A DNA stretch of 41,128 nucleotides. Source: Candidatus Caribbeanibacter nitroreducens (GTDB taxonomy: Bacteria > Gemmatimonadota > Gemmatimonadetes > Palauibacterales > Palauibacteraceae). How positions within the stretch are numbered: position 1 is the stretch's first letter; the number at the start of each line of letters is the position of its first letter. Below the pieces are notes generated by a model. It had not been told where the DNA came from, did no database searches, and worked only from the letters and a program-made list of their open reading frames with translations. Made by a program: the position numbers and the translations under genes. The DNA lies in NCBI GenBank assembly GCA_947581645.1, contig CANPVF010000138.1, positions 1 through 41,128 of the forward strand. Reading direction: 5' to 3'. Below, piece by piece: positions 3,335-33,445 of the stretch.

Positions 3335-3351
3335 GTGGGAGAACTCCCCAC
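3335..3351. promoter_or_regulatory. 17-bp palindromic operator upstream of response regulator
   Basis: GTGGGAGAACTCCCCAC; proximal edge offset 22 from -35-like GACAGA (RC of 3308-3313), then N19, AAGACT (RC of 3283-3288). Confidence 0.75.
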
Positions 3352-3377
3352 CCCCGCACTGTTCGACTCCCCCGGGC

Positions 3378-4193
3378 TCAGCGAACCGGCGCCGCGAAGG
3401 CCCGGCGGCCGGCCCAGTAGCCGATCCCGGTCCAGGCCGCCAGCGACGCCAGGGCCAGGGCGATGAGCGGGCCCCGGCCGAGGCGCTCCAGGAGATCCGC
3501 TCCCACGGGTCCGAGGACGGAGACCCCGGGGTCCAGCACGGCGATCGAGGCCAGCCGGTACGCCTCCACGGGGTTCACGAAGGCCCACACCTCCAGGACC
3601 GACGCCGGCACGCCCCACCCCACGAACGCCCCCGCCAGGCCCAGGCTACCCATGGCGAGAAAGAAGAGCCACACGGTGAGCCCGGCGCTCGTGGCCCGGG
3701 CCCGCGTCGACAGGAGGGAGGAGATCCAGATGCCGAGCGACACGAAGCAGACGCCCAGCAGGAGCGTGAATCCCAGGAGGACCACGACCATGACTGGCGG
3801 CACGCCCCGCACGACCGCCACGAGGCCCGTGGCGCCGAAGCCGGCGAGCACCGCCAGCGACACCGCGGCGCCGACGCCCGTCCACTTCCCGGCGAACACC
3901 TCGTCCCGGGTCACGGGCTGGGCCAGCAGGTAGTCCAGCGTGCCGAGCTCGCGCTCGCCGGCCAGCGCCGAGACCGCCGGGAAGAGCGCCAGGAGCGGGA
4001 CCACGAAGAGGGCGAGCTGCATGAGGCCCGCCAGGGCACGGGCGAAGCCGCGGTACCCCAGGATGGCCTGGTCCGGCTGGCCGAAGAGCATGAGCAGGAG
4101 ACCGCCGACCACGAGCACCCCGGAGCTCACGGCGAACCAGTAGTTGCGGAGCGAGTCGCGGAGCTCGCGCTGGAGGAGCCTGAGGGCCGTCAT
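3378..4193 (-). CDS. nosY: ABC transporter permease NosY
   Basis: ABC-2 type permease (GELGTLDYLLAQPVTRDEVFAGKW). Directly follows nosD and nosF. Confidence 0.85.
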   Translation of the reverse strand: MTALRLLQRELRDSLRNYWFAVSSGVLVVGGLLLMLFGQPDQAILGYRGFARALAGLMQLALFVVPLLALFPAVSALAGERELGTLDYLLAQPVTRDEVFAGKWTGVGAAVSLAVLAGFGATGLVAVVRGVPPVMVVVLLGFTLLLGVCFVSLGIWISSLLSTRARATSAGLTVWLFFLAMGSLGLAGAFVGWGVPASVLEVWAFVNPVEAYRLASIAVLDPGVSVLGPVGADLLERLGRGPLIALALASLAAWTGIGYWAGRRAFAAPVR

Positions 4194-5125
4194 CCGGTGT
4201 CCCTCTTCTCCGCCCCGACGGACCGGGCCGACAGGAGCCGGTCCATGACCTCGTCCAGGGCCGGGGAGAGCGCCCGGAAGTCCTCCACCTCGACCCCCCG
4301 GTCACGGAGGGCACCGAGGGCGTCCATGGCCCCGCCGGGCGCCAGCTCGACCCGGATCCCGCCGCCCCCGTCCTCGGCGGCGCCCCGCACGGAGCCCCGG
4401 TCCCGGAGCAACGCCACGGCGGCCTCCTGGCGGGAGGCGGGCACCTGCACCCAGAGCTCGCCGCCCACGCCCGAGCGCTCCCACAGGTCCTTCAGGGTGC
4501 CGTCGAAGACCACGCCGCCCCCGTGGATCAGGATCACGCGGTTGGCCAGCGACTCCACGTCCTCCAGCCGGTGGGTGGCGAAGAGGATCGTCCGGTCCTC
4601 GTCCACACCTTCCAGAACCCGAACGAATTCCCGCCGGGAGCTCGGATCCAGGCTGGCGGTGGGCTCGTCCAGGAGCAGCACCGGCACCTCCGCCCCCAGC
4701 GCCAGGGCCAGGAGCGTCTTCTGGAGCATTCCCCCGGACAGAGCGGACATCTGCTTCTCTCCCACCTCGTCGGGCGGGAGGCCGAACTCCGCCATCCGCT
4801 CGGTCGCCGGCTCCACCGGGGCGTCCCGGAGGTCGCTGAACAGGTGCAGGAAGGCGGAGACCGTCATGTCGAAGACCGGCGGGCGCTGGGGCACGTATCC
4901 GATCCTGCGCCGGGCCTCCTTGCCGGCCGGCCCGGCCTGCTGCCCGTCCACTGTCACCGAGCCCTCGAACCCGATGAGACCGAGCAGACACTGCAGCAGG
5001 GTGGTCTTTCCCGCACCGTTCAGGCCCAGCACGGCCACCCGCTCGCCACGGTCCACCTGCAGGTCGAGTCCGTCCAGGACCACCTGCTCGCCATAGCTCT
5101 TCCGGAGCCCGTCGATGCTGATCAC
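4190..5125 (-). CDS. nosF: ABC transporter ATPase NosF
   Basis: Walker A GLNGAGKTTLLQ, signature LSGGMLQK, Walker B VLLLDEPTASLDP. GTG start at 5125 overlaps the nosD stop. Confidence 0.88.
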   Translation of the reverse strand: MISIDGLRKSYGEQVVLDGLDLQVDRGERVAVLGLNGAGKTTLLQCLLGLIGFEGSVTVDGQQAGPAGKEARRRIGYVPQRPPVFDMTVSAFLHLFSDLRDAPVEPATERMAEFGLPPDEVGEKQMSALSGGMLQKTLLALALGAEVPVLLLDEPTASLDPSSRREFVRVLEGVDEDRTILFATHRLEDVESLANRVILIHGGGVVFDGTLKDLWERSGVGGELWVQVPASRQEAAVALLRDRGSVRGAAEDGGGGIRVELAPGGAMDALGALRDRGVEVEDFRALSPALDEVMDRLLSARSVGAEKRDTG

Positions 5126-6654
5126 GGCCGGCTCCCGAGCGTCCGCGCCGCCCCCACCGCTCCGGCGGCGGACGCCAGCAGCAGGATCCCCGCCGCGGCG
5201 TCGGTCCGCGTGGAACGCGGCTCCGTGGCCGACGGCGCGGGACGGGCCACCGGCGGCTCGCGCTCCCACCGCCGGAACGCGCCCCGGACCAGCTTCGGCG
5301 CCGAGTCCACCACCAGCGGCCTCGGCTTCAGGAAGGGGAAGAAGCGGCTCACCGTCTCCACCACCGGGACCACGGGGCTGTAGGAGAAGAGACGGAGCGG
5401 CGGGTGCTCGGTCATGAGGTCCTCCGACAGCTTCGAGTAGACGTACGGCGTGTCGCCCACCCCGTCGCCGTCCCGGTCGAAGCCGGCGTAGTCGCTCCAG
5501 TAGTTGCCGCGCCAGTCGTTCTGGGCGGCCTGGTTCTCGCCCACCCCGCCGGTGACCTCCACGGCACGGTGGTTCGACACGAAGTCGTTGTCACGAAAGA
5601 CATTGCCCGTCACCGACGGCAGGGTCCGGAGACCCGCGTCGTTCTCGAAGAAGACATTCCGCTCGAAGTGGTTCTGTACATCGCGGCCGCGCGGCGAATT
5701 GTCCAGGTACACCCCGGCCTCGTTCTCCACGAAGAGGTTGCCCACGGCCCGGATGCTGTCGGCGTCCTTGAGGCCGAGCCCCAGCCCGCTGGCCCCACCC
5801 GACTCGGCGAAGAGGTTGTCCTCGAGCGTGATGTCCGTGGAGTACATGATGAAGGAGCCGACCTGGTTCCCCACGAAGCGGTTTCGCTCGAAGTGGTTGT
5901 TGTTGCTGTACATGTAGTGGAGCCCGTACCGGCCGTCCCGGATCAGGTTCTCCCGGATCGAGAGCCGATCGGAGAAGAAGACCACCACGTCCCGGGTCCG
6001 CGTGATCGTGTTGTCCACGATCTCGGTCCCGGAGCTGTACCACAGCCGGATCCCGTCGCCCCGGCGGGGCGGCGGCAGCGGCTTGCCGGTGATCCGGTTG
6101 CCGCGCACGACGGAGGCCTGGGAGTTCTTCAGGTAGACTCCGTAGTAGACGTCCGCCAGCACGTTGTCCACGATCCGGGCCCGGGCGTCCCGGACCATGA
6201 CGCCGGCGTGCTCCTCGTCGGGGTTCGTGCCCGTGTCGCGGAGCTCGAAGCCCCGTACCTCCAGCGCGGCGCTGGCCTCGATGACGTGGCCGCGACCGCC
6301 GGCGTCGAGGACGGGGCGGTCCACGCCGATCAGCGTCACGGGACGGTCCACCACGACGCGCTCGCGGTAGCGGCCCGGAAGCACCCGGACCGTGTCGCCC
6401 GGCCGCGCGCTGTCCACGGCGGCCGAGACCGCCGAGATGGGCCCGTCGGGCCGCACGGTCCACGTCCGACTGTCGGGGCCCGCCAGGGCGGACGGCCACG
6501 GCGCGGGACTCCGCTCCGCCGCCGAGCTGTCCCGGCGAGCGTCGGCCGCGCCCTCCTGGGCCAGGGCCGTCCCGGGAGCCGCCGCGAGTCCGACCACGGC
6601 CACCAGGGTCGCCGCGGCCGGCCCCACCGCGGGGCGGATGAGCGAGCGGATCAC
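5122..6654 (-). CDS. nosD: Periplasmic copper-binding/maturation protein NosD
   Basis: Signal peptide (PAAATLVAVVGLAAAPGTALAQ), right-handed beta-helix repeats (GIRLWYSSGTEIVDNTITRTRD, YGLHYMYSNNNHFERNRFVGN). GTG start at 6654 overlaps the upstream stop. Confidence 0.9.
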   Translation of the reverse strand: MIRSLIRPAVGPAAATLVAVVGLAAAPGTALAQEGAADARRDSSAAERSPAPWPSALAGPDSRTWTVRPDGPISAVSAAVDSARPGDTVRVLPGRYRERVVVDRPVTLIGVDRPVLDAGGRGHVIEASAALEVRGFELRDTGTNPDEEHAGVMVRDARARIVDNVLADVYYGVYLKNSQASVVRGNRITGKPLPPPRRGDGIRLWYSSGTEIVDNTITRTRDVVVFFSDRLSIRENLIRDGRYGLHYMYSNNNHFERNRFVGNQVGSFIMYSTDITLEDNLFAESGGASGLGLGLKDADSIRAVGNLFVENEAGVYLDNSPRGRDVQNHFERNVFFENDAGLRTLPSVTGNVFRDNDFVSNHRAVEVTGGVGENQAAQNDWRGNYWSDYAGFDRDGDGVGDTPYVYSKLSEDLMTEHPPLRLFSYSPVVPVVETVSRFFPFLKPRPLVVDSAPKLVRGAFRRWEREPPVARPAPSATEPRSTRTDAAAGILLLASAAGAVGAARTLGSRP

Positions 6655-7262
6655 GACTCTCCGGCTCCCTTCTTCTTCCGGCGCCACCACTCGTAGCCCA
6701 GGATCACCGGACCCGCCGCTCCGGCCAGGAGCATCAGGGCTCCGCCCCAGTCCGGATACGCGGTGACCGCGAACTGTCCCACTTCCGTCGATCCCAGAAT
6801 CGTCGGCGTGAACGGCTCGATCTCGATGGGCGCGTCCGGCGACAGGTTGTGGCCGTACTCGTACAGCCAGTGCTGAAAGTCCCACATCATGACCGCGCCG
6901 AAGACGACGAAGTCGATGTACCCCAGGGCGGCGATCGGCATCCGTGCCACCAGGAACGCGAGCCCCGCCAGGAGCAGGAACCGGCCGATGAAGAAGGGGA
7001 TGAAGTTGAACTCCGGGAACTCGTCCGGGGAGATCTCCTGCATCCCGATGTAGTGGTTCAGGTTGTTGATCTCCTGGATGTCCCCCTGGACGGTGTGCGA
7101 CATGATCTCCATGGACAGCCCCTCCGGGTACTGCGGGGCGTGGAGGGTGATCTCCCACACCGGGAGGAAGAGAGCCGGTATCAGGGCCAGCGAGATCACC
7201 AGCAGCGCGATGCGGCTGGGCTTCGAGATCTCCCCCTGAAAGAATTCCTTCAGGTCCTGCAT
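6651..7262 (-). CDS. NosB-like integral membrane protein of clade II nos clusters
   Basis: Multi-TM protein starting MQDLKEFFQGEISKPSRIALLVISLALIPALFLPVWEITLHAPQYPEGL, between nosZ and nosD. Confidence 0.7.
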   Translation of the reverse strand: MQDLKEFFQGEISKPSRIALLVISLALIPALFLPVWEITLHAPQYPEGLSMEIMSHTVQGDIQEINNLNHYIGMQEISPDEFPEFNFIPFFIGRFLLLAGLAFLVARMPIAALGYIDFVVFGAVMMWDFQHWLYEYGHNLSPDAPIEIEPFTPTILGSTEVGQFAVTAYPDWGGALMLLAGAAGPVILGYEWWRRKKKGAGES

Positions 7263-7334
7263 GGTTGCTCCTTCGTTCTGTTCATGGCCGGGCTCCCGCC
7301 CGGGTCTCGATTCAGCGCAGTCCGACAAGCGGAC

Positions 7335-7376
7335 GGCCGGTGCCCCGGGGGATCCGTCGTCCCCGGGGTCCCGGCC
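7335..7376 (-). terminator. Strong inverted repeat between nosZ and nosB-like gene (possible terminator, attenuator or processing hairpin)
   Basis: GGCCGGTGCCCCGGGG...CCCCGGGGTCCCGGCC, 14/16 complementary with a short loop. No obvious T-tract. Confidence 0.5.
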
Positions 7377-7409
7377 GTTCGCGCCCGCTAGCCGGTCCGG
7401 CCTTCTGGT

Positions 7410-9371
7410 TCAGCTGGGCTGTACCAGGAGGTATCCCATCATCTCCAGGTGCAGCGCCGAGCAGAACTCGGTGCAGTAGAAGGGGAAGGTCCCGACCCTG
7501 TCCGCCGTGAACCGAACGGTCTGCGTCTCGCCGGGCTCCAGGCTCACGTTCACGTTGTACTTGTTGATCGCGAACCCGTGGGTGGCGTCCCTCGCCTGCT
7601 CCACGTTGGTGACGTGCAGCACCACCTCGTCGCCCTGGTTCACCTCGATGTGCTCCGGGTTGAAGTGGCTGCGGACGGCGGTCATGTAGACGTGCACGGT
7701 GTTGCCGTCACGCTCGATCCGCTCGTCGCCGGCCCTCGGCGCCTCCTCGCTCACGGCCATCGTGCCCGGATCGAAGCCCACCTCGGGGTAGGTGTTCCAC
7801 GGGCTCAGCTTGTCCGCCTTGATCATCTGAGCGTAGTGGGGCTCCCCGATGCCGATGGCGGCGTCGTAGAGCAGCTGCATGCTCTCTCCGCTCGTGTCGA
7901 TGAGCTGAAAGTTCTGCGGGTGCAGCGGCCCGACGCTCTGGAAGCGGTCGATGGCCCACTTGTTCAGCGAGACCAGGTAGTTGCCGTCCGGGCTCCTCGT
8001 GTCGCCCTCGGCGGCCGCCAGGTGTCCCACGTTGTAGTGCACCGGCAGCTTCTCGATCATCTCCAGCGTCTCGTAGTTCCACTTGGCCACCGCGGACTCG
8101 ATGAAGAGACTCGTGTAGGCCTCGCCGTTCGGGCCGAACTGCGTGTGCAGGGGCCCGAGGCCCAGCTCCAGCTGGCCCTCGACGGCGGAGTCGAAGTTGA
8201 TGATCGGCACGCCGTAGGGGTCGGTGCCCGAGAAGTCCTCGTTCGCGATGGCCTCCTCGATCATCTCCCACGAGTAGACGGTGGCGTGGGGGTCCAGCTT
8301 GCCCGAGATGACCAGCTTGGAGCCGTCCGGCGTCACGTCCACGCCGTGCGGGCTCTTGGGCTCGGGGATGAAGTAGAGCAGTCCCTGCTCGATGGCCACG
8401 TCGATGGGGATCAGCGTCCGCCCCTGGACCGTGCGCGTGTTCTCCGGGTTCTCGGCCACCTTGGCGGCCTTCTCCCAGTTGATCACGTGCAGGTAGTCCA
8501 TGTCGTTGGCGGCGGTCCCGGCCTCGAAGGGCGGATTCCCCTTCCCGATGCCACCGGTGGCCATCTCCGTGTTGAAGGAGTTGATGAACGCCCAGCCGTG
8601 CGAGGGGCCCTTTCCGGCGTCGGAGAGGTCCTGCGCGTACGGCGGGAGCTCGATCGTGAACGACCGGTCCACGTCGATGCGGCCGGCGTCGCGGTCGAAC
8701 TTGAAGAAGGTGACGGCGCCGCGGTAGCGCTCCTCGTAGTCGTCCAGCGAGGCGTGCGTGCCGTCCAGCGTGCCCGCGTACTGGCTCCCCTCCACCACGT
8801 ACTCGGTGTTCGGCGTGACGAAGGCCGCGCCGTGGTTGGACGTCAGCAGCGGGTCGGTGACGATCTGCTTCGTCTCGAAGTCGCGCAGGTCGATGACCCC
8901 GATCCGCGGGTTCGCCTTGTCGTTGATGAACAGGTACTCACCGTCGTAGTCGCCCTCGGTCTCCGACAGCGCCGGGTGGTGGGTGTCACCCCAGCCGATG
9001 TCCTTCTCGAGCATCCGGCCCTGGTCCAGCACGGCGTGAGTCTCCTCCGCCCCGAGGCCGTATCCCTGCCACGGCTCCGGCGTGAAGACGCCGATCACCT
9101 TGAGCAGCCGCATGGAGGGGACGCCGAAGACCATGACCTGACCGGAGTGACCGCCGGAGGACATGAGCAGGTACTCGTCCATCTGCCCCGTCGGCACGTA
9201 GGTCTTCACCGCACGGGCGATGTCCTCCTGGCTCAGGCCGCGGTCCTGGGCGATCTGCCCGACGTCGGCGCCCTGTCCCTGGCCGCCACCTCCGCAGGCC
9301 GCGAAATATCCGAACCCGGCCAGGACGGCGAAGGCCGTCGCTCCGAGCTTCCATCGATGCTTCCCGATCAT
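7410..9371 (-). CDS. nosZ: Nitrous-oxide reductase, Sec/lipoprotein-type (clade II-like)
   Basis: MIGKHRWKLGATAFAVLAGFGYFAACGGGG (lipobox, no twin-arginine), CuZ region GDTHHPALSETEGDYDGEYLFINDKANPRI, CuA motif FYCTEFCSALHLEMMGY. Confidence 0.96.
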   Translation of the reverse strand: MIGKHRWKLGATAFAVLAGFGYFAACGGGGQGQGADVGQIAQDRGLSQEDIARAVKTYVPTGQMDEYLLMSSGGHSGQVMVFGVPSMRLLKVIGVFTPEPWQGYGLGAEETHAVLDQGRMLEKDIGWGDTHHPALSETEGDYDGEYLFINDKANPRIGVIDLRDFETKQIVTDPLLTSNHGAAFVTPNTEYVVEGSQYAGTLDGTHASLDDYEERYRGAVTFFKFDRDAGRIDVDRSFTIELPPYAQDLSDAGKGPSHGWAFINSFNTEMATGGIGKGNPPFEAGTAANDMDYLHVINWEKAAKVAENPENTRTVQGRTLIPIDVAIEQGLLYFIPEPKSPHGVDVTPDGSKLVISGKLDPHATVYSWEMIEEAIANEDFSGTDPYGVPIINFDSAVEGQLELGLGPLHTQFGPNGEAYTSLFIESAVAKWNYETLEMIEKLPVHYNVGHLAAAEGDTRSPDGNYLVSLNKWAIDRFQSVGPLHPQNFQLIDTSGESMQLLYDAAIGIGEPHYAQMIKADKLSPWNTYPEVGFDPGTMAVSEEAPRAGDERIERDGNTVHVYMTAVRSHFNPEHIEVNQGDEVVLHVTNVEQARDATHGFAINKYNVNVSLEPGETQTVRFTADRVGTFPFYCTEFCSALHLEMMGYLLVQPS

Positions 9372-9556
9372 CGTAGGTCTTCCTCCTGTGGTGTGGTGCG
9401 GGCCCGTCGCCCGCTCTCTGAATCGGACAACCACCTCCAGGGCTCTGCCGAGGAAGCAGCCATCGCGAGTCCGTCTCCGGTTCCGTCCGTCTCTCGTCTA
9501 TTGTTCATGCGACGGTGCTTATTTTCGCCCCCGCCGCGCCGGGCGTCTGTAGGGAC

Positions 9557-9988
9557 CTAGTCGAGGGCCGCTGTGGGGCGTTCCCCCACGTCCTCGGCTA
9601 CCGCGTCTCCCACCGTGGTCCGTCGGAAGAACGTGACGATGGGGGCGGCCACGTCCTTCCACTCGTCGTGAACGGGACACGGGTGCTCCTCGCTGCACTC
9701 CTCCCGGCCCAGCACGCACTCGCGGCTGGCGTCCAGGGTCTCGAAGGCCTCGATCACCCGGAGTAGGGGCAGCTCGTCCGCCGGGACGGCCAGGCGGTAG
9801 CCACCCCCCGGCCCCCGGTTCGAGTCCAGGAGTCCCTCCCGGGCCAGCGCGTGGAGCGTCTTGGACAGGTAGTTCTCCGGCAGGTCCAGCTCCCTGGAGA
9901 GGGTCTCCGCCGAGACTCTCTGGTCACCGTGCCGGGCCAGCTCCACCACGGCCCGGATCGCGTATCGCGACGTTCGCGTCATTCGCAT
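9557..9988 (-). CDS. Rrf2-family Fe-S regulator, NsrR-like
   Basis: MTRTSRYAIRAVVELARHG...LPENYLSKTLHALAREGLLDSNRGPGGGYRLA and C-x6-C-x5-C (CVLGREECSEEHPC), typical of Fe-S Rrf2 proteins. Confidence 0.88.
   Translation of the reverse strand: MRMTRTSRYAIRAVVELARHGDQRVSAETLSRELDLPENYLSKTLHALAREGLLDSNRGPGGGYRLAVPADELPLLRVIEAFETLDASRECVLGREECSEEHPCPVHDEWKDVAAPIVTFFRRTTVGDAVAEDVGERPTAALD
9573..9589. promoter_or_regulatory. 17-bp palindromic operator upstream of nosZ (inside Rrf2 3' end)
   Basis: GTGGGGCGTTCCCCCAC; offset 22 from TACAGA (RC of 9546-9551), N19, GAAAAT. Confidence 0.65.
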
Positions 9989-9991
9989 GGT

Positions 9992-10546
9992 TCAGCTCCC
10001 GTCGCTGTCGCCGGAGTCGGACGCCCGGCCCGTGGCCCCGTCCGACGAGGCGGCGGAGCCCGAGCCGTCGACCTGCCGGAAGTACTCGAACAGGGCCCGG
10101 GCCTCCTCACGCGTGACGCCCTGGTTCGACATGGGGGTCAGGTACTCGGCCAGGAGCGCCTTCCCGATGGAATCGTTCCGGATCATCGAGTCCGGGTTCG
10201 TCACCATGTGATGGAACCAGGGGTAGTCCCGCCGGGACGTGACGCCCTCCAGCGGGGGACCGACCAGCCGCTCGTCCAGCCGGTGGCAGGCCATGCACCC
10301 GAGGTCCTTGAACAGCTTCTCGCCCCGGGAGGCCAGCGCCTCGTCGATGGGACCGCGAACCGGCTGGAGATCGCCGGACGTGGCTGCCGCCGAGCCGGAC
10401 GCGTCGCCGGCCGCGGATCCGGCCGTACCGGAGTCGCCTCCGCCGCAGGCCGCGAGGGCCAGGACGAGGACGAGGGCCGCGAGACGGCCCGCCTCGAATC
10501 GATCGGGAGTGTTGATCCACCGGATGAACGGAAGGTCGTCGCGCAT
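9992..10546 (-). CDS. Lipoprotein c-type cytochrome
   Basis: Lipobox LALAACGGG; single heme CMACH with downstream PMSNQGV Met-ligand region. Confidence 0.88.
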   Translation of the reverse strand: MRDDLPFIRWINTPDRFEAGRLAALVLVLALAACGGGDSGTAGSAAGDASGSAAATSGDLQPVRGPIDEALASRGEKLFKDLGCMACHRLDERLVGPPLEGVTSRRDYPWFHHMVTNPDSMIRNDSIGKALLAEYLTPMSNQGVTREEARALFEYFRQVDGSGSAASSDGATGRASDSGDSDGS

Positions 10547-10699
10547 CTATCCTCTCCTGCACTGTGTGGTCGGCTCCGACGGGACAGCAGGACCGCCGCG
10601 GCCGTATTTCTCATGGCCACGTCGATTTTAGACGCGGAGACGGGGGGTGTCTGTCCGGGGGACGTCGCAGAGGGGTGTCGGAGATCGCCGGAACGGGAC

Positions 10700-10716
10700 G
10701 TGGGGAGTCTCCCCAC
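10700..10716. promoter_or_regulatory. 17-bp perfect palindrome upstream of cytochrome c-Rrf2 genes
   Basis: GTGGGGAG-T-CTCCCCAC, perfect 8+1+8; offset 45 from GACAGA (RC of 10650-10655), N19, TAAAAT (RC of 10625-10630). Confidence 0.8.
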
Positions 10717-12021: not shown

Positions 12022-12498
12022 CTAGCGCGTGGCCAGTCCCCGGGACGAGGCCAGCATCTTCAGCAGGTCGTGCCGGGCGACCATGCCCACCGGACGCCCT
12101 CCCTCGTCCACGACGGGAACGTGCTTCACGTCGCGGTCGAGCATGATCTCCAGGATCCGGTCGACGGCATCGTCCAGCTCCACCGAGTGGACGGGCCTGG
12201 ACATGACCTCGTCCACGCCCCGACTTCGGGCCTCGTCGTAGACCTTCTCTGCGTTCTGCTTGCCGAGCCACTGGCCCAGCAGCTTCTGTGATCGGAACGT
12301 GGAGAACGGGATGTGGGCGGGTTTCGCCGCGAAGTCGCTGTCGGTGACGATGCCCACGACCTTGCCGCTGTCGTCGACCACCAGCAGCGAGCCGACCTCG
12401 CGGTCGAGCATCGTGTCCGCCGCCTCCTCCAGGGTCGCCGTCCGGTTCACCGTCACCGCCGGCGACGTCATGATGTCTCGAGCAGTCTGTTCCTTCAT
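12022..12498 (-). CDS. CBS-domain pair protein (Hrp1-like)
   Basis: ARDIMTSPAVTVNRTATLEEAADTMLDREVGSLLVVDDSGKVVGIVTDSDF ... VDEVMSRPVHSVELDDAVDRILEIMLDRDVKHVPVVDEGGRPVGMVARHDLL. Confidence 0.9.
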   Translation of the reverse strand: MKEQTARDIMTSPAVTVNRTATLEEAADTMLDREVGSLLVVDDSGKVVGIVTDSDFAAKPAHIPFSTFRSQKLLGQWLGKQNAEKVYDEARSRGVDEVMSRPVHSVELDDAVDRILEIMLDRDVKHVPVVDEGGRPVGMVARHDLLKMLASSRGLATR

Positions 12499-12554
12499 CG
12501 TGGATCCTTCTTCCGTTCGATTCCTCGTCCCTCGCTTCACCGCGGGCGTCGAGC

Positions 12555-12586
12555 GTGGCGCTGCCCCTCCCGGGGTGCAGCGCCAC
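12555..12586. terminator. Intrinsic-terminator-like hairpin
   Basis: GTGGCGCTGCCCC-TCCC-GGGGTGCAGCGCCAC, perfect 9-bp outer arms plus CCCC/GGGG. Confidence 0.5.
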
Positions 12587-12589
12587 GGC

Positions 12590-13123
12590 TCACGGCACCT
12601 CCGGGTCTCCCTCGCTCTCCACCCTGGCCAGCAGCCCCCTGTGCCGGCGGGCCAGATAGATTCCCACGGCCGCCGCCGCCACCAGGTTGGCCCAGACCAC
12701 CGAGCCGGTCGGGAAGGCGTCCAGTACCGGTATCGCCACCGCGAACACGATCACCAGGCTGAACATGAATATCATGACGAAGGCGAAGAAAGCCAGGTAC
12801 CACTCCGCCGGATGATACTCGATCTCGCGGACGAGCCAGGCCGATACGAAGCCCACCGTCAGGAAAACCAGCAGGTGGAGCCCGTTGTAGACGAAGATCG
12901 GGGCCGGGCCGGTGGCGGAGACCGGATCCGGCAGGGGCTCGCCCAGGATCGCGCTTCCCAGCACCGTCGGAGTGTGCAGCACCCACTCACCGGCGATGAG
13001 GTTGCCCAGGGCGTACAGGACGATGATCATCGCGTAGCCGATCAGCCCGGCGACGAACCCCTCCCATGCCAGGCCGCCACCGGGCGTCTCCGCCGACGGC
13101 GCGCCTCCGCTCCCGTGCTGCAT
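12590..13123 (-). CDS. Hypothetical multi-TM membrane protein
   Basis: Four hydrophobic helices (GFVAGLIGYAMIIVLYALGNLIAG; FAFVMIFMFSLVIVFAVAIP); Met at 13123 is the likely start. Confidence 0.6.
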   Translation of the reverse strand: MQHGSGGAPSAETPGGGLAWEGFVAGLIGYAMIIVLYALGNLIAGEWVLHTPTVLGSAILGEPLPDPVSATGPAPIFVYNGLHLLVFLTVGFVSAWLVREIEYHPAEWYLAFFAFVMIFMFSLVIVFAVAIPVLDAFPTGSVVWANLVAAAAVGIYLARRHRGLLARVESEGDPEVP

Positions 13124-13130
13124 CACCGGC

Positions 13131-13748
13131 TCACCTCCTCTCGCCGTCGTCCGATGCATCCCCGCCACCGTCCTCGGGGACGAAGACGGAGTAGACGCCC
13201 CGCAGGTCGCCGACCTCGAACCCGTGGGCGCGGTCCTCGGGATACCCCTCCTTCACGAACGCCGGCCGCTCCTCCTTCGCGCCGTGGCAGGCCAGGCACG
13301 CCCGCTCCACGGTGATGCGCCGGAAGTAGCGCACTCCCTCGCGGCCGTCCATCGTCGTCCTGCGCCACGTGCCCATGAGCTCGGGGTCCCGCTCCATCTC
13401 CTCCATCACGGTCCGCGCCGCCGAGTCGGCACGGTGCGCCGGGTTGCGGAAGCGGATCGCCATCTGCGACACGGTCCAACCGTTCTCGGCCGCCACGCTC
13501 TTCATCTCCTTGCCCACGGGCTGGCAGACGTTGCGGAACGTCTCCCGGTCCACGTCGCCACCGCTGCCCAGGAAGCTCCGGGCCAGGCCGGAGCGGAGCG
13601 CGTCCAGCCGTTCGATCTCCCTCACGGCCTCGCCCAGCTCGTCGGGCGGCGGCTCCGGCGGACCGGCCTCCTGGGCCGCGGCGACGGGCGCCCAGAGCAG
13701 GAGCGCCCCGGCGGCCGCGGCCGCCATGCGCCCGATTCCCCCTGTCAC
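13131..13748 (-). CDS. Tll0287-like/DUF3365 single-heme sensor-type protein
   Basis: Signal peptide and ...ERACLACHGAKEERPAFVKEGYPEDRAHGFEVGDLRGVYSVFVP with CxxCH. Confidence 0.78.
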   Translation of the reverse strand: MTGGIGRMAAAAAGALLLWAPVAAAQEAGPPEPPPDELGEAVREIERLDALRSGLARSFLGSGGDVDRETFRNVCQPVGKEMKSVAAENGWTVSQMAIRFRNPAHRADSAARTVMEEMERDPELMGTWRRTTMDGREGVRYFRRITVERACLACHGAKEERPAFVKEGYPEDRAHGFEVGDLRGVYSVFVPEDGGGDASDDGERR

Positions 13749-14071
13749 CGGTCCAGTCGGCGGGAGATGCGACGCATGACCCTCTTCGCCTCGGTGGCGG
13801 CGTCGTCCACGCCGTCCTTCAGGTCGTACCAGGTGTCCTCACCGGCCGTCTCCAGCTCGCCGACGCGGCGGCGCATGGTCTCCAGCGCGTCCTGCAGCTC
13901 TTCCAGGCCCTCGTGATAGCGGATCTTCACGTCCGCCTTCGTCTTCCGCGCCCGGGCCTGCCACAGGTCGAGCTTCGCCGACCACTCGTCGAGCTGCGCC
14001 CGCCGGCGGTCTCGGTAGGCCCCCCTCTTCTTGCTGTTGCCCAGCGCCATACCTCGCACGGTCTTCTTCAT
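13745..14071 (-). CDS. Small charged coiled-coil protein, unknown function
   Basis: MKKTVRGMALGNSKKRGAYRDRRRAQLDEWSAKLDLWQARARKTKADVKIRYHEGLEELQDALETMRRRVGEL; overlaps the downstream start. Confidence 0.6.
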   Translation of the reverse strand: MKKTVRGMALGNSKKRGAYRDRRRAQLDEWSAKLDLWQARARKTKADVKIRYHEGLEELQDALETMRRRVGELETAGEDTWYDLKDGVDDAATEAKRVMRRISRRLDR

Positions 14072-14183: not shown

Positions 14184-14200
14184 GTCGGAGAATCCCCCAT
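14184..14200. promoter_or_regulatory. Degenerate copy of the operator upstream of coiled-coil/Tll0287 genes
   Basis: GTCGGAGAATCCCCCAT; no clear GACAGA box at the usual offset. Confidence 0.5.
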
Positions 14201-14222: not shown

Positions 14223-14963
14223 TCAGTGCAGTCCCACCCGGAGGGCGAGGAGGAGCCCGAGCCCCGCGGAGAACGCGGCCAGGTGCAGCAGGTTGTGGCG
14301 GATCGAGTCGTTCCTGTTCACCTCGGGCACCAGGTCCGAGGCGGCGATGTAGATGAAGTTCCCGGCGGCCAGGGGCAGGAGGAAGTCGACGTCGAGCTGG
14401 CGCGAGGCACCGTAGGCCACCAGCGAGCCGGCGAGGAAGGCGAGCCCCGAGAGGAGGTTGAAGAAGAGCGCCCGGCCCTTCGACCACCCGCCGTGCACCA
14501 GCACCGCGAAGTCGCCGAGCTCCTGGGGCACCTCGTGCGCGGCGGCCGCCACCCAGGTGGTGATCCCCAGCCGCACGTCCACCAGGAAGGCGCTGGCCAC
14601 CGCCAGCCCGCCCATGAAGTTGTGCAGACCGTCGCCCAGCAGGATCAGGTACGTCAGCGGCTCCCGACACTCGGCCACGTCCCGGTGACAGTGGTGCCAG
14701 TGCAGGAACTGCTCGATCACGAAGAAGATCAGGAAGCCGCCCAGGAGCCACGTGAAGACCTCCGTGGGCCCACCCATCTCCCCCAGCGCCGTGGGCAGCA
14801 TGTGGAAGAACGCCCCACCCAGGAGCGAGCCGGCGGCGAAGGCGACCAGCGGGAGCAGGAGCCGTCGGAGCGTCTGGTCGCTGAACAGGAGCGTGCTGCT
14901 CCCGACGAGCGCGATGACGCTCATCAGAACGCCGCCGGACAGGATCCACAGGAATGTCGTCAC
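14223..14963 (-). CDS. ZIP-family metal transporter (copy 2)
   Basis: GDGLHNFMGGLAVASAFLVD and AAAHEVPQELGDFAVLVHGGW. Confidence 0.87.
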   Translation of the reverse strand: MTTFLWILSGGVLMSVIALVGSSTLLFSDQTLRRLLLPLVAFAAGSLLGGAFFHMLPTALGEMGGPTEVFTWLLGGFLIFFVIEQFLHWHHCHRDVAECREPLTYLILLGDGLHNFMGGLAVASAFLVDVRLGITTWVAAAAHEVPQELGDFAVLVHGGWSKGRALFFNLLSGLAFLAGSLVAYGASRQLDVDFLLPLAAGNFIYIAASDLVPEVNRNDSIRHNLLHLAAFSAGLGLLLALRVGLH

Positions 14964-15738: not shown

Positions 15739-15890
15739 GATCTTCCTTCCGAGTCCTGTAGGATTCTGGCTGCCGTCTCTGCCCCGCCCGGCCGGGGCCG
15801 GGCAGGGTCGACCCGGAAGCTAGAGCCGCCGACCCCGGCCGTCTGTCCGGGTCTTCCGGAGACGAGCGTCGGGAGCCCATCGTTTCGCGC

Positions 15891-15907
15891 GTCGGAACAT
15901 TCCCCAC
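15891..15907. promoter_or_regulatory. Operator in the divergent SDR/CBS intergenic region
   Basis: GTCGGAACATTCCCCAC. Toward SDR: offset 44 to GACAGA, N19, TAGCTT. Toward CBS: offset 22 to GACGGC, N19, GACATT. Confidence 0.7.
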
Positions 15908-18755: not shown

Positions 18756-18772
18756 GAGGGGAAATCCCCCAC
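18756..18772. promoter_or_regulatory. Operator upstream of TonB-like gene
   Basis: GAGGGGAAATCCCCCAC; offset 22 to GACAGC (18794-18799), N19, TAGCGT (18819-18824). Confidence 0.75.
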
Positions 18773-18878: not shown

Positions 18879-19577
18879 ATGACGCCGGAAGAGCACAGGC
18901 GGACGGTCCGAGGAGTCGTCGAGGAGCCGAAGTCGGCGAACGAACGGTTCAAGGAGGGATTTTCCGCCGTCGTCGCCGGCGGGCTGATCGCGGCGACGCT
19001 GGCTCACCTGGCCCTGTTCGAGCTGTTCCCCGAGATGCGGGCGGCGGACGTCGGTGCCGTCTCTCGGGCCACCCGCACCATCGAGCTGCCGCCGCAGGTC
19101 GAGGTACCGCCCCCGCCCGAGGCCGTGGCCCGGCCCGCCACGCCGAAGGTCTCCGCCGCGGCCGACATCAGCGAGGACGTCACCATCAGCAAGACGTCGT
19201 TCGAGGCCAACCCGAGCGACCACCTCCCGCCGCCCCCGAAGGCGACGGCGCAGAGCAGCGCCGAGAAGCGGCCGGAGTTCATTCCCTATGACGTGGCGCC
19301 GGAGCTCAAGAACCCCCGGGAGGTCCAGAAGTACCTGATGGAGACGTACCCGCCCGAGCTGCGCGCCAACGCCGTCGGCGGACGGGTCGTCCTCTGGCTC
19401 TACATCGACCGTCGGGGACAGGTGCAGGAGACCCGTGTACAGGTGAGCAGCGGCTACGAGGCCCTGGACCGGGCCGCCCACAGGGTGGGACGGCGAATGG
19501 AGTTCACCCCGGCGATGAACCGGGACAAGAGGACGCCGGTCTGGGTGCAGCAGGGCATCGAGTTCGAGGTGAAATAG
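18879..19577 (+). CDS. TonB-like energy transducer
   Basis: Single N-terminal TM, Pro-rich periplasmic linker, C-terminal GGRVVLWLYIDRRGQVQETRVQVSSGYEALDRAAHRVGRRMEFTPAMN. Confidence 0.85.
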   Translation: MTPEEHRRTVRGVVEEPKSANERFKEGFSAVVAGGLIAATLAHLALFELFPEMRAADVGAVSRATRTIELPPQVEVPPPPEAVARPATPKVSAAADISEDVTISKTSFEANPSDHLPPPPKATAQSSAEKRPEFIPYDVAPELKNPREVQKYLMETYPPELRANAVGGRVVLWLYIDRRGQVQETRVQVSSGYEALDRAAHRVGRRMEFTPAMNRDKRTPVWVQQGIEFEVK

Positions 19578-19590: not shown

Positions 19591-20442
19591 TCACCCCTCG
19601 GGGGCCGGCGCCTCCTCGTCGGTCCGGTCCCGGCTCGCCTGCCGGCCGAGCCCCGAGGACACGGGCACGCGGCCCAGGTCCCTGACCACCAGGTCCGCGC
19701 CGGCTCGCTCCAGAGCCTCCTCTCCCTCCCGGTCGCGGGCGACCCCGATCACGACGCCGAAGTCACCGCGACGCCCGGCCTCGACACCCGGGGCGGAATT
19801 CTCGACGACGGCGGACCGGTCGGGGCTCGCGTCCAGGCGGCCGGCGGCCTGCAGCAGAAGATCCGGAGCGGGCCTCCCCGTGAGCGTGGGATCGTCGGCG
19901 AACTCGGCGGCGTCCACCACGGCGTCGAACAGCTCCTCCAGCCCCGACGCCTCCAGTACCTGCCGACCGTGCCGGCTGCCCGTGACCACCGCCGTACGGA
20001 CGCCCGCCGAACGGAGGCGACGGACCAGCTCCGCCGAACCCGGAAGGATCGGCAGCCCCCCGGACTCGAGTACGGCCCGATACCGTTCGTCCTTTCGGTT
20101 TCCCAGCGCGCACACCGAGTCCGGGCCCGCCGGGTCGCCGGGGGCGCCGAAGGGCAGCTCGATGCCCCGCGCCCGCAGGAAGTCCCGGGCGCCCTCGTAC
20201 CGCGGCTTGCCGTGCACGTGACGTCGGTAGTCGTTGCGGGTGAAGGGCTCGAAGGGAGTTTCCTCACGGTCGGCGCGGCGCTCCAGGAAGGGATCGAAGG
20301 TCTCCTTCCACGCCCGGAAGTGCGCCTCCGCCGTATCGGTGAGGACACCCTCCAGTTCGAAGATCGCCGCGTCCAGCTCCTCCGGCCGGAGCACCCCCGA
20401 TGCCGTTCCTCTCGTCGCTTTCCCGTTCGGCTCGCCCGTCAT
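19591..20442 (-). CDS. HAD-superfamily beta-phosphoglucomutase-like phosphatase
   Basis: AAIFELEGVLTDTAEAHFRAWKE; DYRRHVHGKPRYEGARDFLRARGIELP; VVENSAPGVEAGRRGDFGVVIGV. Start ATG 20442. Confidence 0.85.
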   Translation of the reverse strand: MTGEPNGKATRGTASGVLRPEELDAAIFELEGVLTDTAEAHFRAWKETFDPFLERRADREETPFEPFTRNDYRRHVHGKPRYEGARDFLRARGIELPFGAPGDPAGPDSVCALGNRKDERYRAVLESGGLPILPGSAELVRRLRSAGVRTAVVTGSRHGRQVLEASGLEELFDAVVDAAEFADDPTLTGRPAPDLLLQAAGRLDASPDRSAVVENSAPGVEAGRRGDFGVVIGVARDREGEEALERAGADLVVRDLGRVPVSSGLGRQASRDRTDEEAPAPEG

Positions 20443-20659
20443 GGTCGCCTCCCGTTCGTGCCTCCGCTCGCGCTTCCCGCCCCCGGGCCTCCGGGGCCGG
20501 GGGAGCGATCCCCGTCCTCTCCTCTCACGGCTCCATCTACCCGGGACCCCGGCAACGTGTTTGCAGGGGATGGCCCCGAGCGCCGTCGCCACCCGGGACG
20601 CGAGCCTCCCCTTCCGCTCCCGGGTCGCTCCCTGGAGCGCCATCGATCCCGAGGTGAGC

Positions 20660-22033
20660 ATGGACGAGCCGACCCCCTGGGTGGACGATCGGAGCGCCGC
20701 CCTCCTGACGGACCTGTACGAGCTGACGATGCTCCAGGCCTACTGGCGGGAGGGCATGGATCGGGACGCGGTGTTCAGCCTCTACTACCGCCGACTTCCC
20801 GAACCCCGCAACTACGTGCTGGCGGCCGGCCTGGAGGACGCGCTCCGGTACCTGGAGACGGTGAGCTTCCCCCCCGAAGGCCTCGACTTCCTGGCGGGCC
20901 GCCGGGAGTTCAGCCGGGAGTTCGTCGACTGGCTCGCGGACTTCGAGTTCACCGGCGACGTCCGCGCGATGCCCGAGGGGACGCCGGTCTTCCCGTACGA
21001 GCCGCTTCTCGAGGTCACGGGGCCGATGCCGGAGGCCCAGCTCGCCGAGACCTTCATCATGAACCAGGTGCATTTCCAGAGCGTGCTGGCGTCGAAGGCG
21101 GCGCGGATCGTGGAGGCGGCCGGCGACCGGGCCGTGGTGGATTTCGGTCTCCGGCGGATGCACGGCACGGACGCCGGCATGAAGGGGGCGCGGGCCTACC
21201 ACATCGCCGGCGTCGCCGCCACGAGCAACGTCCTGGCCGGCCGGGTCTACGGCGTTCCGATCACCGGCACCATGGCCCACAGCTACGTGCAGTCCCACGA
21301 CGACGAGCTCGAGGCCTTCCGTGCGTTCGCGGAGCAGTACCCGGAGACCGTCCTCCTGGTGGACACCTACGACACGCTGGACGGGATCCGGAAGGTGGTG
21401 GAGCTGTCCGACGAGCTCGGAGACGACTTCCGCGTCCGGGCCGTGCGGCTGGACTCCGGCGACCTGGCCGAGCTGGCCGTCGAGTCACGGGAGATCCTGG
21501 ACCGGGCGGGGCTGGAGGACGTCGAGATCTTCGCCTCCGGGGGACTGGACGAGTACGAGATCGCCGAGATCGTCGAGAGGGACGCCCCCATCACGGGGTT
21601 CGGCGTCGGTACCCGGATGGGAACCGCGCGGGACGCCCCATCCCTGGACATGGCGTACAAGCTCACCGCCTACTCCGGCCGGGGACGGCTCAAGCTGTCC
21701 AGCGGCAAGCGGATCCTTCCCGGTCCCAAGCAGGTGTACCGCCGGGAGGAGGACGGCGTCTACGCGGGGGACGTGGTGGCCCGGGCCGGCGAGGAGCCGC
21801 CGGAGGGGCGCCCCCTCCTCCGGACGGTCATGGAGGATGGCGAGCGGACGGAGGCCGGCCACACCGATCTGGACGAGGCACGGGAGCGGAGGCGCCGGGA
21901 GCTGGACCGGCTCCCGGAGAGGATCCGGCGCGTCGAGCCGGCAGACGCGCCATATCCGGTCCAGGTCTCGGAAGAGCTGGAGGAGTACGAGGAGGACGTG
22001 CGCGAACGCGTCATCGCCGAGACCGGCGACTGA
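20660..22033 (+). CDS. pncB: Nicotinate phosphoribosyltransferase
   Basis: LLTDLYELTMLQAYWREGMDRDAVFSLYYRRLPEPRNYVLAAGLEDAL; VDFGLRRMHGTDAGMKGARAYHIAG; MAHSYVQSHDDELEAF. Confidence 0.93.
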   Translation: MDEPTPWVDDRSAALLTDLYELTMLQAYWREGMDRDAVFSLYYRRLPEPRNYVLAAGLEDALRYLETVSFPPEGLDFLAGRREFSREFVDWLADFEFTGDVRAMPEGTPVFPYEPLLEVTGPMPEAQLAETFIMNQVHFQSVLASKAARIVEAAGDRAVVDFGLRRMHGTDAGMKGARAYHIAGVAATSNVLAGRVYGVPITGTMAHSYVQSHDDELEAFRAFAEQYPETVLLVDTYDTLDGIRKVVELSDELGDDFRVRAVRLDSGDLAELAVESREILDRAGLEDVEIFASGGLDEYEIAEIVERDAPITGFGVGTRMGTARDAPSLDMAYKLTAYSGRGRLKLSSGKRILPGPKQVYRREEDGVYAGDVVARAGEEPPEGRPLLRTVMEDGERTEAGHTDLDEARERRRRELDRLPERIRRVEPADAPYPVQVSEELEEYEEDVRERVIAETGD

Positions 22034-22044
22034 GTCGGCAGGCT

Positions 22045-22953
22045 TCAGCTCCCCTCGTCTCGCCGCCGGAGACGCTCCTCCTCGGACGCCCGATACCCGG
22101 TCACGAGGTCCAGCAGCTCCTCGGTCACGGCCTCCTGGCGGCGATCCCTGAGCTCCTGCCGGAGCTGCTGCACGTGCTCCTCGATGCGCGTCTCGGCACG
22201 CTCCATCGCGGCCAGCCGACCGGCGTGCTCCGAGGCCTGGGACTCGGCCGCCGCCCGGACGGTGGACACGTACAGGTGCTCGCGGACCAGGAAGCGGAAG
22301 AGCCCCTCCCACGGGGCGCGGTAGGTGGGGATCACCGACGTGGGCCACGGCCGCGCCTGCAGGTCGGCCAGCCACTCCCGGTCCAGCGGTAGGAGCAGCT
22401 GCCACCGCGGCCCGTAGGCCGCACCACTGCGGTAGGCGTGGTGGGTGATGGCCAGCGTCTCGAGCCCCTCACGTCGCCACGTCTCCACGCTGAGGAGCAG
22501 ATCCTGCGCGAGCCCGGTGAGGCCGTCCGGACCGGCGGGCACCGGAAGCACGATCTCCGGCTCGAAGCCGGCCTCGCGCAGGTGGGGGACCAGCCGACCA
22601 CCGACGGCGGCGACGCGAACCGGCCTTCCGAGCCCCCTCAGCCGGGGAGCAGCGTGCGAGACGATGTCGGCGTTGAACTGCCCCACGAGTCCCAGGTCGG
22701 ACCCGAAGACGACGGCTCCGGCCGCCCCGTCCCGGGCATCGAGGCCCGCCGGGGCTGCCCCCGACTCCACCGGCGCGTCCCGCAGCGCCACCTGAAGGCC
22801 GAGCTCCAGAGTCTCGCGGTAGCCCTCCAGGGCGGAGACCGCCTCCCGAAACCCCCGGATCCGGACCGCGGCCAGCGCCTTCATCGCCCCGGCGATGGAC
22901 CACAGGCTCTCCGCCGCTTCCACCCGTTTCCGCAGACCCTCGACGCGCTGCAC
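22045..22953 (-). CDS. atpG: N-ATPase gamma subunit
   Basis: MQRVEGLRKRVEAAESLWSIAGAMKALAAVRIR...; last gene of the N-ATPase operon. Confidence 0.87.
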   Translation of the reverse strand: MQRVEGLRKRVEAAESLWSIAGAMKALAAVRIRGFREAVSALEGYRETLELGLQVALRDAPVESGAAPAGLDARDGAAGAVVFGSDLGLVGQFNADIVSHAAPRLRGLGRPVRVAAVGGRLVPHLREAGFEPEIVLPVPAGPDGLTGLAQDLLLSVETWRREGLETLAITHHAYRSGAAYGPRWQLLLPLDREWLADLQARPWPTSVIPTYRAPWEGLFRFLVREHLYVSTVRAAAESQASEHAGRLAAMERAETRIEEHVQQLRQELRDRRQEAVTEELLDLVTGYRASEEERLRRRDEGS

Positions 22954-25533: not shown

Positions 25534-25542
25534 CTTCTTATC

Positions 25543-26262: not shown

Positions 26263-26264
26263 CG

Positions 26265-26840: not shown

Positions 26841-26854
<14 letters not shown>
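26531..26854 (-). CDS. atpQ: AtpI-like/AtpQ membrane protein
   Basis: FGLGMFGLVGWSVAVPALLGIGLGMFLDARLSATPGTVSWTLTGLVVGVVVGCVNAWYWVKRE. Confidence 0.82.
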
Positions 26855-28972
<2,118 letters not shown>

Positions 28973-28993
28973 TCAGCGACGGCGAGGAGAGGC

Positions 28994-30091: not shown

Positions 30092-30112
30092 GCGCCGGAG
30101 CCGGAGCTCCGA

Positions 30113-31558: not shown

Positions 31559-31592
31559 GTATCCTCTGTCCTCGCTGTTTCGTCGTCCGTGA

Positions 31593-33344
31593 TCATTCCC
31601 TGTCGAGCCACTTCTTCAGCTCCGAGAGGGAGCGTGTATTCAGCACGTCGTCCGGCTCGAGCCATCCCCTGCGGGCCTGCGCCACGCCGTACTCCATGTA
31701 CCGGAGGTTGTCCGTGCTGTGAGCGTCCGTGGAGATGACCACCGGGACGCCGAGCTCGCGGGCCCGGAAGACGTGACGGTCGCTGAGGTCCAGGCGCTCC
31801 GGGTTGGCATTCAGCTCCACCGCCACGTCGTGCTCGCGCGCCGCCTCCAGGACGGCCTCCACGTCCAGGTCGTACGGCTGCCGTTCGTTGATCCGACGTC
31901 CCGTGGGATGGGCCAGCACGTGGACGGCCGGGTGCGAGACGGCGGTGACGATGCGCTCCGTCTGCTCGGCCCCGTCCAGGTCCATGTAGGAGTGGACGGA
32001 CACCAGGACCAGGTCGAGCTTCTCCAGGTGCTCGTCGTCCAGGTCCAGTGACCCGTCCTTCAGGATGTCCACTTCCAGCGACCGGAGGATCTCGATGTCC
32101 AGGTCCCCCTCGAAGCCGTCGATCTCCTTCCACTGCTCCTCCAGCTCGTCCTCGTCCAGTCCCCCGGCCACGCTGACGCGCCGGGAGTGGTCGGTGATGG
32201 CCATGTACTCGTAGCCCCGCTCCTGGCAGGCCCGGGCCATGGTCTCGATCGTGTTCTTGCCGTCGGACCAGGTGGAGTGCATCTGCAGGTCGCCGCGGAT
32301 GTCGGACAGCTCGACCAGGTCGGGGAGCTCGTCCTCCCCGGCGGCCTCGATCTCGCCCCGATCCTCCCGGAGCTCCGGCGGCATCCACACGAGGCCGAGG
32401 GCCTCGTAGACGCCCTCCTCGGTCTCGCCGGCCACACGCTCGCCCTCGCCGGGCTCCATCTCGTCCGGATCGACCCCCTCCGGGATCTCGAACACCCCGT
32501 ACTCGCTCACCCGGAGGCCGTCGTCGAGGGCACGCTTGCGCAGCTTCACGTTGTGCTCGAGCGACCCGGTGAAGTACTGGAGCGCCGCTCCGTAGGACTC
32601 CCCGGGCAGGATCCGCAGGTCCACCTGCAGACCGGGGCGAAGGACGACGCTCCCCCGGGTCTCCCCGGCCTCGATGACGCGCTCCACCAGGTCGTAGGAG
32701 GTGAAGTGCTCCATCACGGGCCCGGCGTCATCGCAGGCCACGAGCAGGTCGATGTCGCCCACGGTCTCCTTCCGCCGGCGGTAGCTTCCCGCCACGTCCA
32801 GCTCCTCGACGCCGGGAGCTTCCCCCATGTACTCCAGGAGCGGCTCCACCCAGCGGTCGGCGTCGCCCAGGCGGAAACGCTCCCGGTGCTCGCGGAAATC
32901 CTCGATGGCCTGGCGCAGCTTCTCGGCGGTCTTCTGGCCGAACCCCTCCAGCTCGACGACCCGTCCCCCGTCCAGGGCGTCCTCGAGGTCGTCGACGGTC
33001 TCGATGTCCAGCTCCTCCCAGAGCTTCTTCGCCTTCTTCGGGCCGATGCCCTCCAGGTCCAGGAGATCGGCCACGGTGGGCGGGACCTCGTCGTGCAGAT
33101 CCCGGAGAAGCTGGAATTCGCCGGTCTCCACCATCTCGGTGATGTATCCGGAGATGTCCTCGCCGATGCCGGAGAGCTCGGTCAGGTCCTCACCCTCCTC
33201 CACCATCTCGGCGAGGGAGCGCGTCAGCCCCTCGATGGTTCGCACGGCGTTCCGGTAGGCTCGCACGCGGAACGGGTTCGCCTCCTGGATCTCCAGGAGG
33301 TCGGCCACCTCGCTGAGTCGTTCGGCGATCTCTACGTTTTCCAT
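31593..33344 (-). CDS. polX: DNA polymerase X with PHP domain (PolX)
   Basis: HhH motifs, GSYRRRKETVGDIDLLVA catalytic Asp pair, PHP motif LQMHSTWSDGKNTIE and ITDHSRRV. Start MENVEIAERL at 33344. Confidence 0.94.
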   Translation of the reverse strand: MENVEIAERLSEVADLLEIQEANPFRVRAYRNAVRTIEGLTRSLAEMVEEGEDLTELSGIGEDISGYITEMVETGEFQLLRDLHDEVPPTVADLLDLEGIGPKKAKKLWEELDIETVDDLEDALDGGRVVELEGFGQKTAEKLRQAIEDFREHRERFRLGDADRWVEPLLEYMGEAPGVEELDVAGSYRRRKETVGDIDLLVACDDAGPVMEHFTSYDLVERVIEAGETRGSVVLRPGLQVDLRILPGESYGAALQYFTGSLEHNVKLRKRALDDGLRVSEYGVFEIPEGVDPDEMEPGEGERVAGETEEGVYEALGLVWMPPELREDRGEIEAAGEDELPDLVELSDIRGDLQMHSTWSDGKNTIETMARACQERGYEYMAITDHSRRVSVAGGLDEDELEEQWKEIDGFEGDLDIEILRSLEVDILKDGSLDLDDEHLEKLDLVLVSVHSYMDLDGAEQTERIVTAVSHPAVHVLAHPTGRRINERQPYDLDVEAVLEAAREHDVAVELNANPERLDLSDRHVFRARELGVPVVISTDAHSTDNLRYMEYGVAQARRGWLEPDDVLNTRSLSELKKWLDRE

Positions 33345-33428
33345 GGACTGTAGCTTAGCGTGGAACACTGCTCCGACTCCGTCGGGCAGGCCTCGGGGGA
33401 GGACGTGGGGGGAGGCCGCCGGCGTCCG

Positions 33429-33445
33429 TCGGGAGAACTCCCATG
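33429..33445. promoter_or_regulatory. Operator between PolX-esterase genes and CapA-like gene
   Basis: TCGGGAGAACTCCCATG, containing GGGAGAACTCCC identical to the core at 3337-3348; offset about 46 to GACGGA (RC of 33378-33383). Confidence 0.6.

Follow-up and report, generated by a model that had tools for sequence, protein, structure and literature searches.

The closest described relatives of the system reported here are DosRST, FixLJ, NreABC and NarXL/NarQP. In the DosRST (DevRS) hypoxia regulon of Mycobacterium tuberculosis, the kinases DosS and DosT sense with GAF domains, and a LuxR-type regulator controls genes including those for universal stress (Usp) and CBS proteins. The DosR box, TTSGGGACTWWAGTCCCSAA, is a 20-bp, G-rich palindrome with a TSGGGA half-site that often occurs in several copies per promoter (PMC2275270). 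FixLJ of the rhizobia joins the haem-PAS kinase FixL to a LuxR-type regulator and is linked to cbb3 oxidase and nitrous oxide (N2O) respiration. In staphylococci, the PAS-HisKA_3 kinase of NreABC works with a LuxR-type regulator, which binds a GC-rich palindrome at genes for anaerobic respiration (PMC8139620). NarXL and NarQP combine a HAMP-HisKA_3 membrane protein with a NarL-family regulator. Here, we analysed a 17-bp palindrome, GTSGGRANWNTYCCSAC, that recurs in a contig of 41,128 nucleotides (C138, 71% G+C; hereafter the window) from the 2.96-Mb draft genome of Candidatus Caribbeanibacter nitroreducens (Gemmatimonadota). Judging from sequence comparison, the palindrome is very probably bound by one master regulator, apparently undescribed, and we are fairly confident that this regulator is of the LuxR/NarL type, is activated by a PAS-HisKA_3 kinase and serves a respiratory regulon for low oxygen or acceptor limitation.

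Gemmatimonadota, a little-studied phylum of soil and water, are abundant in soils, and some of them reduce N2O, a greenhouse gas. Gemmatimonas aurantiaca reportedly starts to reduce N2O only if some oxygen is present (PMC9530729). Neither the present system nor the regulation of Gemmatimonadota nosZ was found described in the open-licence literature, where a subscription paper could be missed. The predicted system would work like FixLJ, DosRS or NreBC but belongs to none of them, because defining features of each were looked for and not found. As in DosRST, a LuxR-type regulator is associated with a G-rich palindrome in multiple copies, and Usp and CBS genes are among the predicted targets; however, the recognition helix of DosR differs from that of the regulator here, and the partner kinase has one PAS domain and no GAF domain, unlike the GAF haem kinases DosS and DosT. 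The half-sites of the DosR box also lie 3 bp further apart than those of the 17-bp motif (PMC2275270). The kinase PAS domain is related to that of FixL, but HisKA_3 takes the place of the FixL kinase domain, the distal arginine is mostly absent, and the regulon appears wide and direct rather than relayed through FixK; equivalog scores stayed below the cut-off for both FixJ (94 of 255 bits) and FixL (69 of 850). The pairing of a PAS-HisKA_3 kinase with a LuxR-type regulator is that of NreBC, but the kinase sequences lack the four cysteines of the NreB 4Fe-4S cluster and have a FixL-type histidine instead. Unlike in NarXL/NarQP, the HAMP-HisKA_3 partner lacks a phospho-accepting histidine, and NarL sites, which are heptamers in a 7-2-7 arrangement, differ from the palindrome.

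The genome was examined as sampled stretches, and genes were predicted with our own codon-model script; therefore, start codons are approximate. A matrix derived from 58 sites in relatives was used to score the refined palindrome, which has the half-site GTSGGRA. Because those 58 sites had initially been selected with a matrix informed by the window, the window scores are not fully independent. A preceding sequence-only reading had listed nine occurrences in a common 17-bp register, and each was found where it had been placed. As had been noted, all but one lie between genes; the exception is 9573, in the 3′ end of an Rrf2 gene. The register held for seven of them (3335, 9573, 10700, 14184, 15891, 18756 and 28840), which scored 16.1–21.6 bits. 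Position 28822 was rejected as a site (2.7 bits), and 33429 (−7.2 bits) proved to be one base off a real, weaker site at 33428 (13.2 bits). Two more matches occur inside coding sequence, at 14802 (14.0 bits) and at 20251 (16.8 bits), the latter upstream of the predicted gene 20570-22033 by approximately 300 bp.

Above 16 bits, the intergenic DNA of the window contained 6 sites against a shuffle mean of 0.01, and the entire window 8 against 0.07. With a matrix trained on the window only, matches above 12 bits in two sets of other contigs were far denser between genes than in coding sequence (4.8 vs 0.17 and 3.0 vs 0.16 per 10 kb), and the reversed matrix gave 0–1 matches on the same contigs. 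Both sets were partly selected for carrying matches, so no genome-wide total was estimated. Contigs picked by number had no intergenic match above 10 bits with the window-trained matrix, so it is particular genes that the sites mark. As a hot spot, the window holds 7 of the 29 sampled intergenic matches in 4% of the sampled intergenic DNA (p about 2e-4, with a matrix trained on the window), but the regulon is genome-wide, and its earlier description as spanning about 30 kb understated the extent. Chance and the base composition of a 71% G+C genome might seem sufficient, given that the originally proposed arms, allowing 2 mismatches, are no commoner than in shuffles. This loose count only means that position weights are needed; once they are applied, the shuffles, the near-zero reversed-matrix control and the transfer of the motif to other genera already refute that explanation, to which we give practically no weight.

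Alignment of 77 upstream regions on the palindrome revealed further half-sites, TYCCSAC, at +25/26 and +48/49, in steps of about 23.5 bp. GACAGA elements clustered 28–30 and 51–54 bp from the palindrome centre, with starts near +29/30 or +52-54 in the alignment, and TANNNT lay exactly 25 bp from the first base of GACAGA in 11 cases, any other offset being seen at most once. The array ends in a half-site fused to a −35-like TCCCGACAGAC, followed by 18 bp and TANNNT. This geometry indicates that the last half-site overlaps the −35 region; centred near −43 of the predicted start, it would take a class II position, which fits an activator. We counted 59 exact composite promoters in 15 genomes with the regulator, against 7 in 15 genomes without it (controls, 5 and 4). 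The same pattern with a single mismatch was too loose to discriminate and was abandoned. In the window, the composite promoter is clearest at 10700 and on the minus strand of 15891, and nosZ has GAAAAT at the −10 position. None was recognisable at 14184, 18756 and 33428, and the operons there are thus less certain targets; evidence for the control of single window operons (for example, TonB or PolX/CapA) is weaker than that for conserved targets.

The palindrome arms are complementary and G+C-rich, as might be expected of RNA hairpins, terminators or a mobile repeat. However, they vary independently, showing no covariation beyond independence, which fits a protein dimer and not a hairpin. There was also no intergenic match above 10 bits between convergent genes, and the spacing of the sites to −35 and −10 is fixed, so an origin of this kind is highly improbable. 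An Rfam search gave no match, and counts of GTGGGN7CCCAC were inflated by tRNA T-arm-like sequences with a GTTCGA core.

The candidate regulator is present in two copies that are 75% identical, one in the window and one at L040:11340-11996 (C123:71340-71996 of the same genome, G000). The receiver domain (PF00072) and GerE (PF00196) both score above cut-off, giving the NarL/FixJ (LuxR-type) architecture. Among curated subfamily models (NarL, FixJ, GacA and MctR), all those shown stayed below cut-off, the best NCBIfam model being GacA/UvrY (183.5 bits against a cut-off of 280). Within the family, close orthologues (78–80% identity) occur in five other genomes, and the six regulator genomes average 4.5 near-perfect motif matches vs 1.2 in the rest (p=0.0014). 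Other families have orthologues at about 58–78% identity. Of 25 such loci outside the family (70–78%), 23 have the motif beside the kinase-regulator operon at a threshold of >10 bits, 21 at >12 and 18 at >14, vs 2, 1 and 0 with the reversed matrix. Twenty wider regulator loci from other genera, overlapping the 25, contained 26 sites above 13 bits vs 0 reversed. All motif-bearing loci share the invariant recognition helix K-T-V-D-T-Y-R-[SA]-R, and above 14 bits no site was found at same-family homologues of ≤50% identity with changed helices. Together with its paralogue on C123, the response regulator at 2491-3186, already suspected in the sequence-only reading, is a strongly supported candidate. 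In the genus g6 (L107-L112), homologues that are 44–50% identical have changed recognition helices and kinases with the same PAS histidine; these regulators probably read a shifted DNA motif.

The Rrf2 protein (9557-9988) had been named as the other candidate, and the motif could in principle be the operator of this protein, acting as an NsrR/IscR-like repressor of the same genes. Its gene is flanked by those for cytochrome c and NosZ, a site lies on each side of it, and weak Rrf2 homologues (35–37%) occur near the regulator in G010 and G013. Gene and motif are not co-distributed, however: G006 has 14 near-consensus sites but no Rrf2 relative at E≤1e-20 and none between cytochrome c and nosZ, whereas the g2/g4 genomes have Rrf2 relatives and almost no motif. 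Rrf2 was therefore rejected as master regulator, and we consider this role very unlikely; as part of the cytochrome c operon, the Rrf2 gene is instead probably one of the targets. A different global regulator, such as one of the CRP/FNR type, might co-occur with the two-component system, bind the sites and control the kinase-regulator operon. Global low-oxygen regulons are often under CRP/FNR proteins, FixLJ itself acts through FixK, and phylogenetic co-occurrence is unable to separate two genes inherited together. Against this, the motif is without TTGAT/TGTGA half-sites, GTSGGRA is not FNR/CRP-like, and the motif tracks one regulator with an invariant helix and was not detected near changed-helix homologues, which makes a second regulator unlikely, as judged from the half-sites and the distribution of the response regulator, if less so than Rrf2.

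Among the genes for respiration and energy metabolism, both nosZ copies, cytochrome c-Rrf2, the NiFe hydrogenase small subunit and a multihaem cytochrome are preceded by sites in the window's genome. The same applies to the genes of three further enzymes (2-oxoacid:ferredoxin oxidoreductase, aconitase and a multicopper oxidase), to those of ZIP transporters and a K+ transporter, to an N-ATPase-type operon, and to the genes for Usp, CBS proteins and a response regulator/kinase pair. The matrix again selects intergenic sites in G006, G010 and G004. Orthologous promoters share sites upstream of hydrogenase, 2-oxoacid:ferredoxin oxidoreductase, the cytochrome c before nosZ, the multihaem cytochrome, an S15 peptidase and kinases. 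A site in the hydrogenase promoter was found in 8/10 regulator-positive and 2/20 negative genomes (p=3e-4); the nosZ promoter tracks the regulator more weakly (p=0.04). The nosZ loci of two more distant Gemmatimonadota metagenome-assembled genomes (L057 and L058) had no motif. Both enrichment between genes relative to coding and shuffled DNA and retention at orthologous promoters in other genera thus bear out the proposed motif, and they support the earlier proposal that a single dimeric regulator may co-control N2O respiration, ion-motive ATPase, metal transport and stress genes.

In most relatives, the regulator is co-transcribed with a soluble PAS-HisKA_3-HATPase kinase. The best solved matches of its PAS domain are a sensor kinase and FixL haem domains, and the position of the FixL proximal histidine is histidine in 36/36 kinases. 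Because a histidine at this position could be widespread in the PAS subfamily concerned, haem binding is suggested rather than established. A divergently encoded HAMP-HisKA_3 membrane protein has Q, Y, F, V, L or E at the phospho-accepting histidine in 17 of 18 aligned sequences, across families, and its ATP-binding box is lost as well in the window's genome. It is a conserved pseudokinase and may serve as a phosphatase dedicated to the regulator. The HAMP-HisKA_3 gene is often followed by Usp and CBS genes. In four genomes of the genus g53 (L252, L253, L260 and L263), ccoN is present at the regulator locus, accompanied in L263 by confirmed ccoO and ccoG, and in L253 and L263 a site and composite promoter lie between the regulator and the cbb3 genes. 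The Usp/CBS and cbb3 gene content points to oxygen limitation.

On this basis, the soluble kinase would phosphorylate the regulator, which would then activate transcription. Regulator dimers are predicted to occupy the palindrome plus one or two additional sites, which are often half-degenerate, at a spacing of approximately 23.5 bp and positions of about −90, −67 and −43, the site near −43 overlapping the −35 for class II activation. Most likely, the system responds to low oxygen or a shortage of electron acceptors, perceived through the FixL-like haem PAS. Targets would comprise the kinase-regulator operon itself, nosZ, cytochromes c, NiFe hydrogenase, 2-oxoacid:ferredoxin oxidoreductase and Usp and CBS proteins, and cbb3 oxidase in another genus. 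Some observations weigh against this model. Neither regulator copy in the window's genome adjoins the PAS kinase, which sits with the second nosZ on C107. Some nosZ promoters of regulator-positive genomes (G338, G323 and G016) have no obvious site. Hydrogenase or nosZ promoters of G168, G076 and G153 (L247, L243 and L213) have motif-like sites in genomes without a close regulator orthologue, where perhaps a diverged regulator of that family acts. Finally, the FixL distal arginine (R220 in FixL numbering) is mostly replaced, mostly by leucine (arginine is kept in L077), making oxygen uncertain as the ligand. The second nosZ (L077:8164-10185) is 75% identical to the first and has its own palindrome at 10349 with GACAGAC.

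A further division of labour can be put forward tentatively, as possible rather than probable: the soluble haem-PAS kinase, the LuxR-type activator and the HAMP-HisKA_3 pseudokinase might form a three-part low-oxygen system of Gemmatimonadota, in which the pseudokinase is only a phosphatase or antagonist and oxygen sensing is split from envelope-signal sensing. The proposed regulon would be FixL-like and DosR-like outside Proteobacteria and Actinobacteria, with a conserved pseudokinase. The regulator, DNA code, promoter layout and target list predict which genomes would switch on N2O reduction and hydrogen oxidation together. Coordinates are collected in Table 1.

Table 1. Palindromes and associated genes in the window, with HAMP-HisKA_3 examples from other loci
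Feature	Position	Strand	Remarks
LuxR/NarL-type response regulator (REC + GerE), nos-cluster copy of proposed regulator	2491..3186	-	PF00072, PF00196; recognition helix ISPKTVDTYRSR
Palindrome GTGGGAGAACTCCCCAC	3335..3351	-	148 bp upstream of response regulator start; -35-like half-site GACAGAT (3307-3313) without a clear -10 at expected spacing
nosY-like ABC-2 permease; nosD (nos cluster)	3378-4193; 5122-6654		Pfam for nosZ and cluster: PF18764, PF05048, PF12679
nosZ (nitrous oxide reductase), head of nos cluster	7410..9371	-	Pfam; promoter -35-like CCCTACAGAC (core 9545-9551), 18 bp, -10 GAAAAT (9521-9526)
Palindrome GTGGGGCGTTCCCCCAC	9573..9589	-	In 3′ end of Rrf2 gene; nosZ promoter
Rrf2-family regulator	9557..9988	-	PF02082
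c-type cytochrome, upstream of nosZ	9992..10546	-	PF00034
Palindrome GTGGGGAGTCTCCCCAC	10700..10716	-	Array down to -35-like CCGGACAGAC (core 10649-10655), -10 TAAAAT (10625-10630)
Operon: unknown protein, Tll0287-like, unknown, CBS-domain protein	12022..14071	-	
Palindrome GTCGGAGAATCCCCCAT	14184..14200	-	112 bp upstream of operon starting 14071
Palindrome GTCGGAACATTCCCCAC	15891..15907	.	Flanked by divergent operons, SDR-ZIP (-) and CBS-ZIP-AI-2E transporter (+); promoter on minus strand, GACAGAC 15841-15847, TAGCTT 15817-15822
Palindrome GAGGGGAAATCCCCCAC	18756..18772	+	106 bp upstream of TonB-C protein 18879-19577
Palindrome GGGGGGAGATCCCCCAC	28840..28856	-	95 bp upstream of N-ATPase-type (alternate F1F0) operon, first gene 27239-28744 (TIGR03305); GACAGAC at 28772-28778
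Weaker palindrome GTCGGGAGAACTCCCAT	33428..33444	.	Between PolX (-) and CapA-like (+) genes
HAMP-HisKA_3 protein, examples	L040:12244-13311; L141:10213-11301; L158:9351-10397; L159:11664-12635; L252-L267		

ARAGORN reported a 98-nt tRNA-Phe at 21987-22084 of the window, overlapping the end of the predicted gene 20570-22033 and probably spurious. The NosZ of the window is closest to named Gemmatimonadota metagenome-assembled genomes, and promoters orthologous to that of the window cytochrome c carry a site in G006 and G004 as well.

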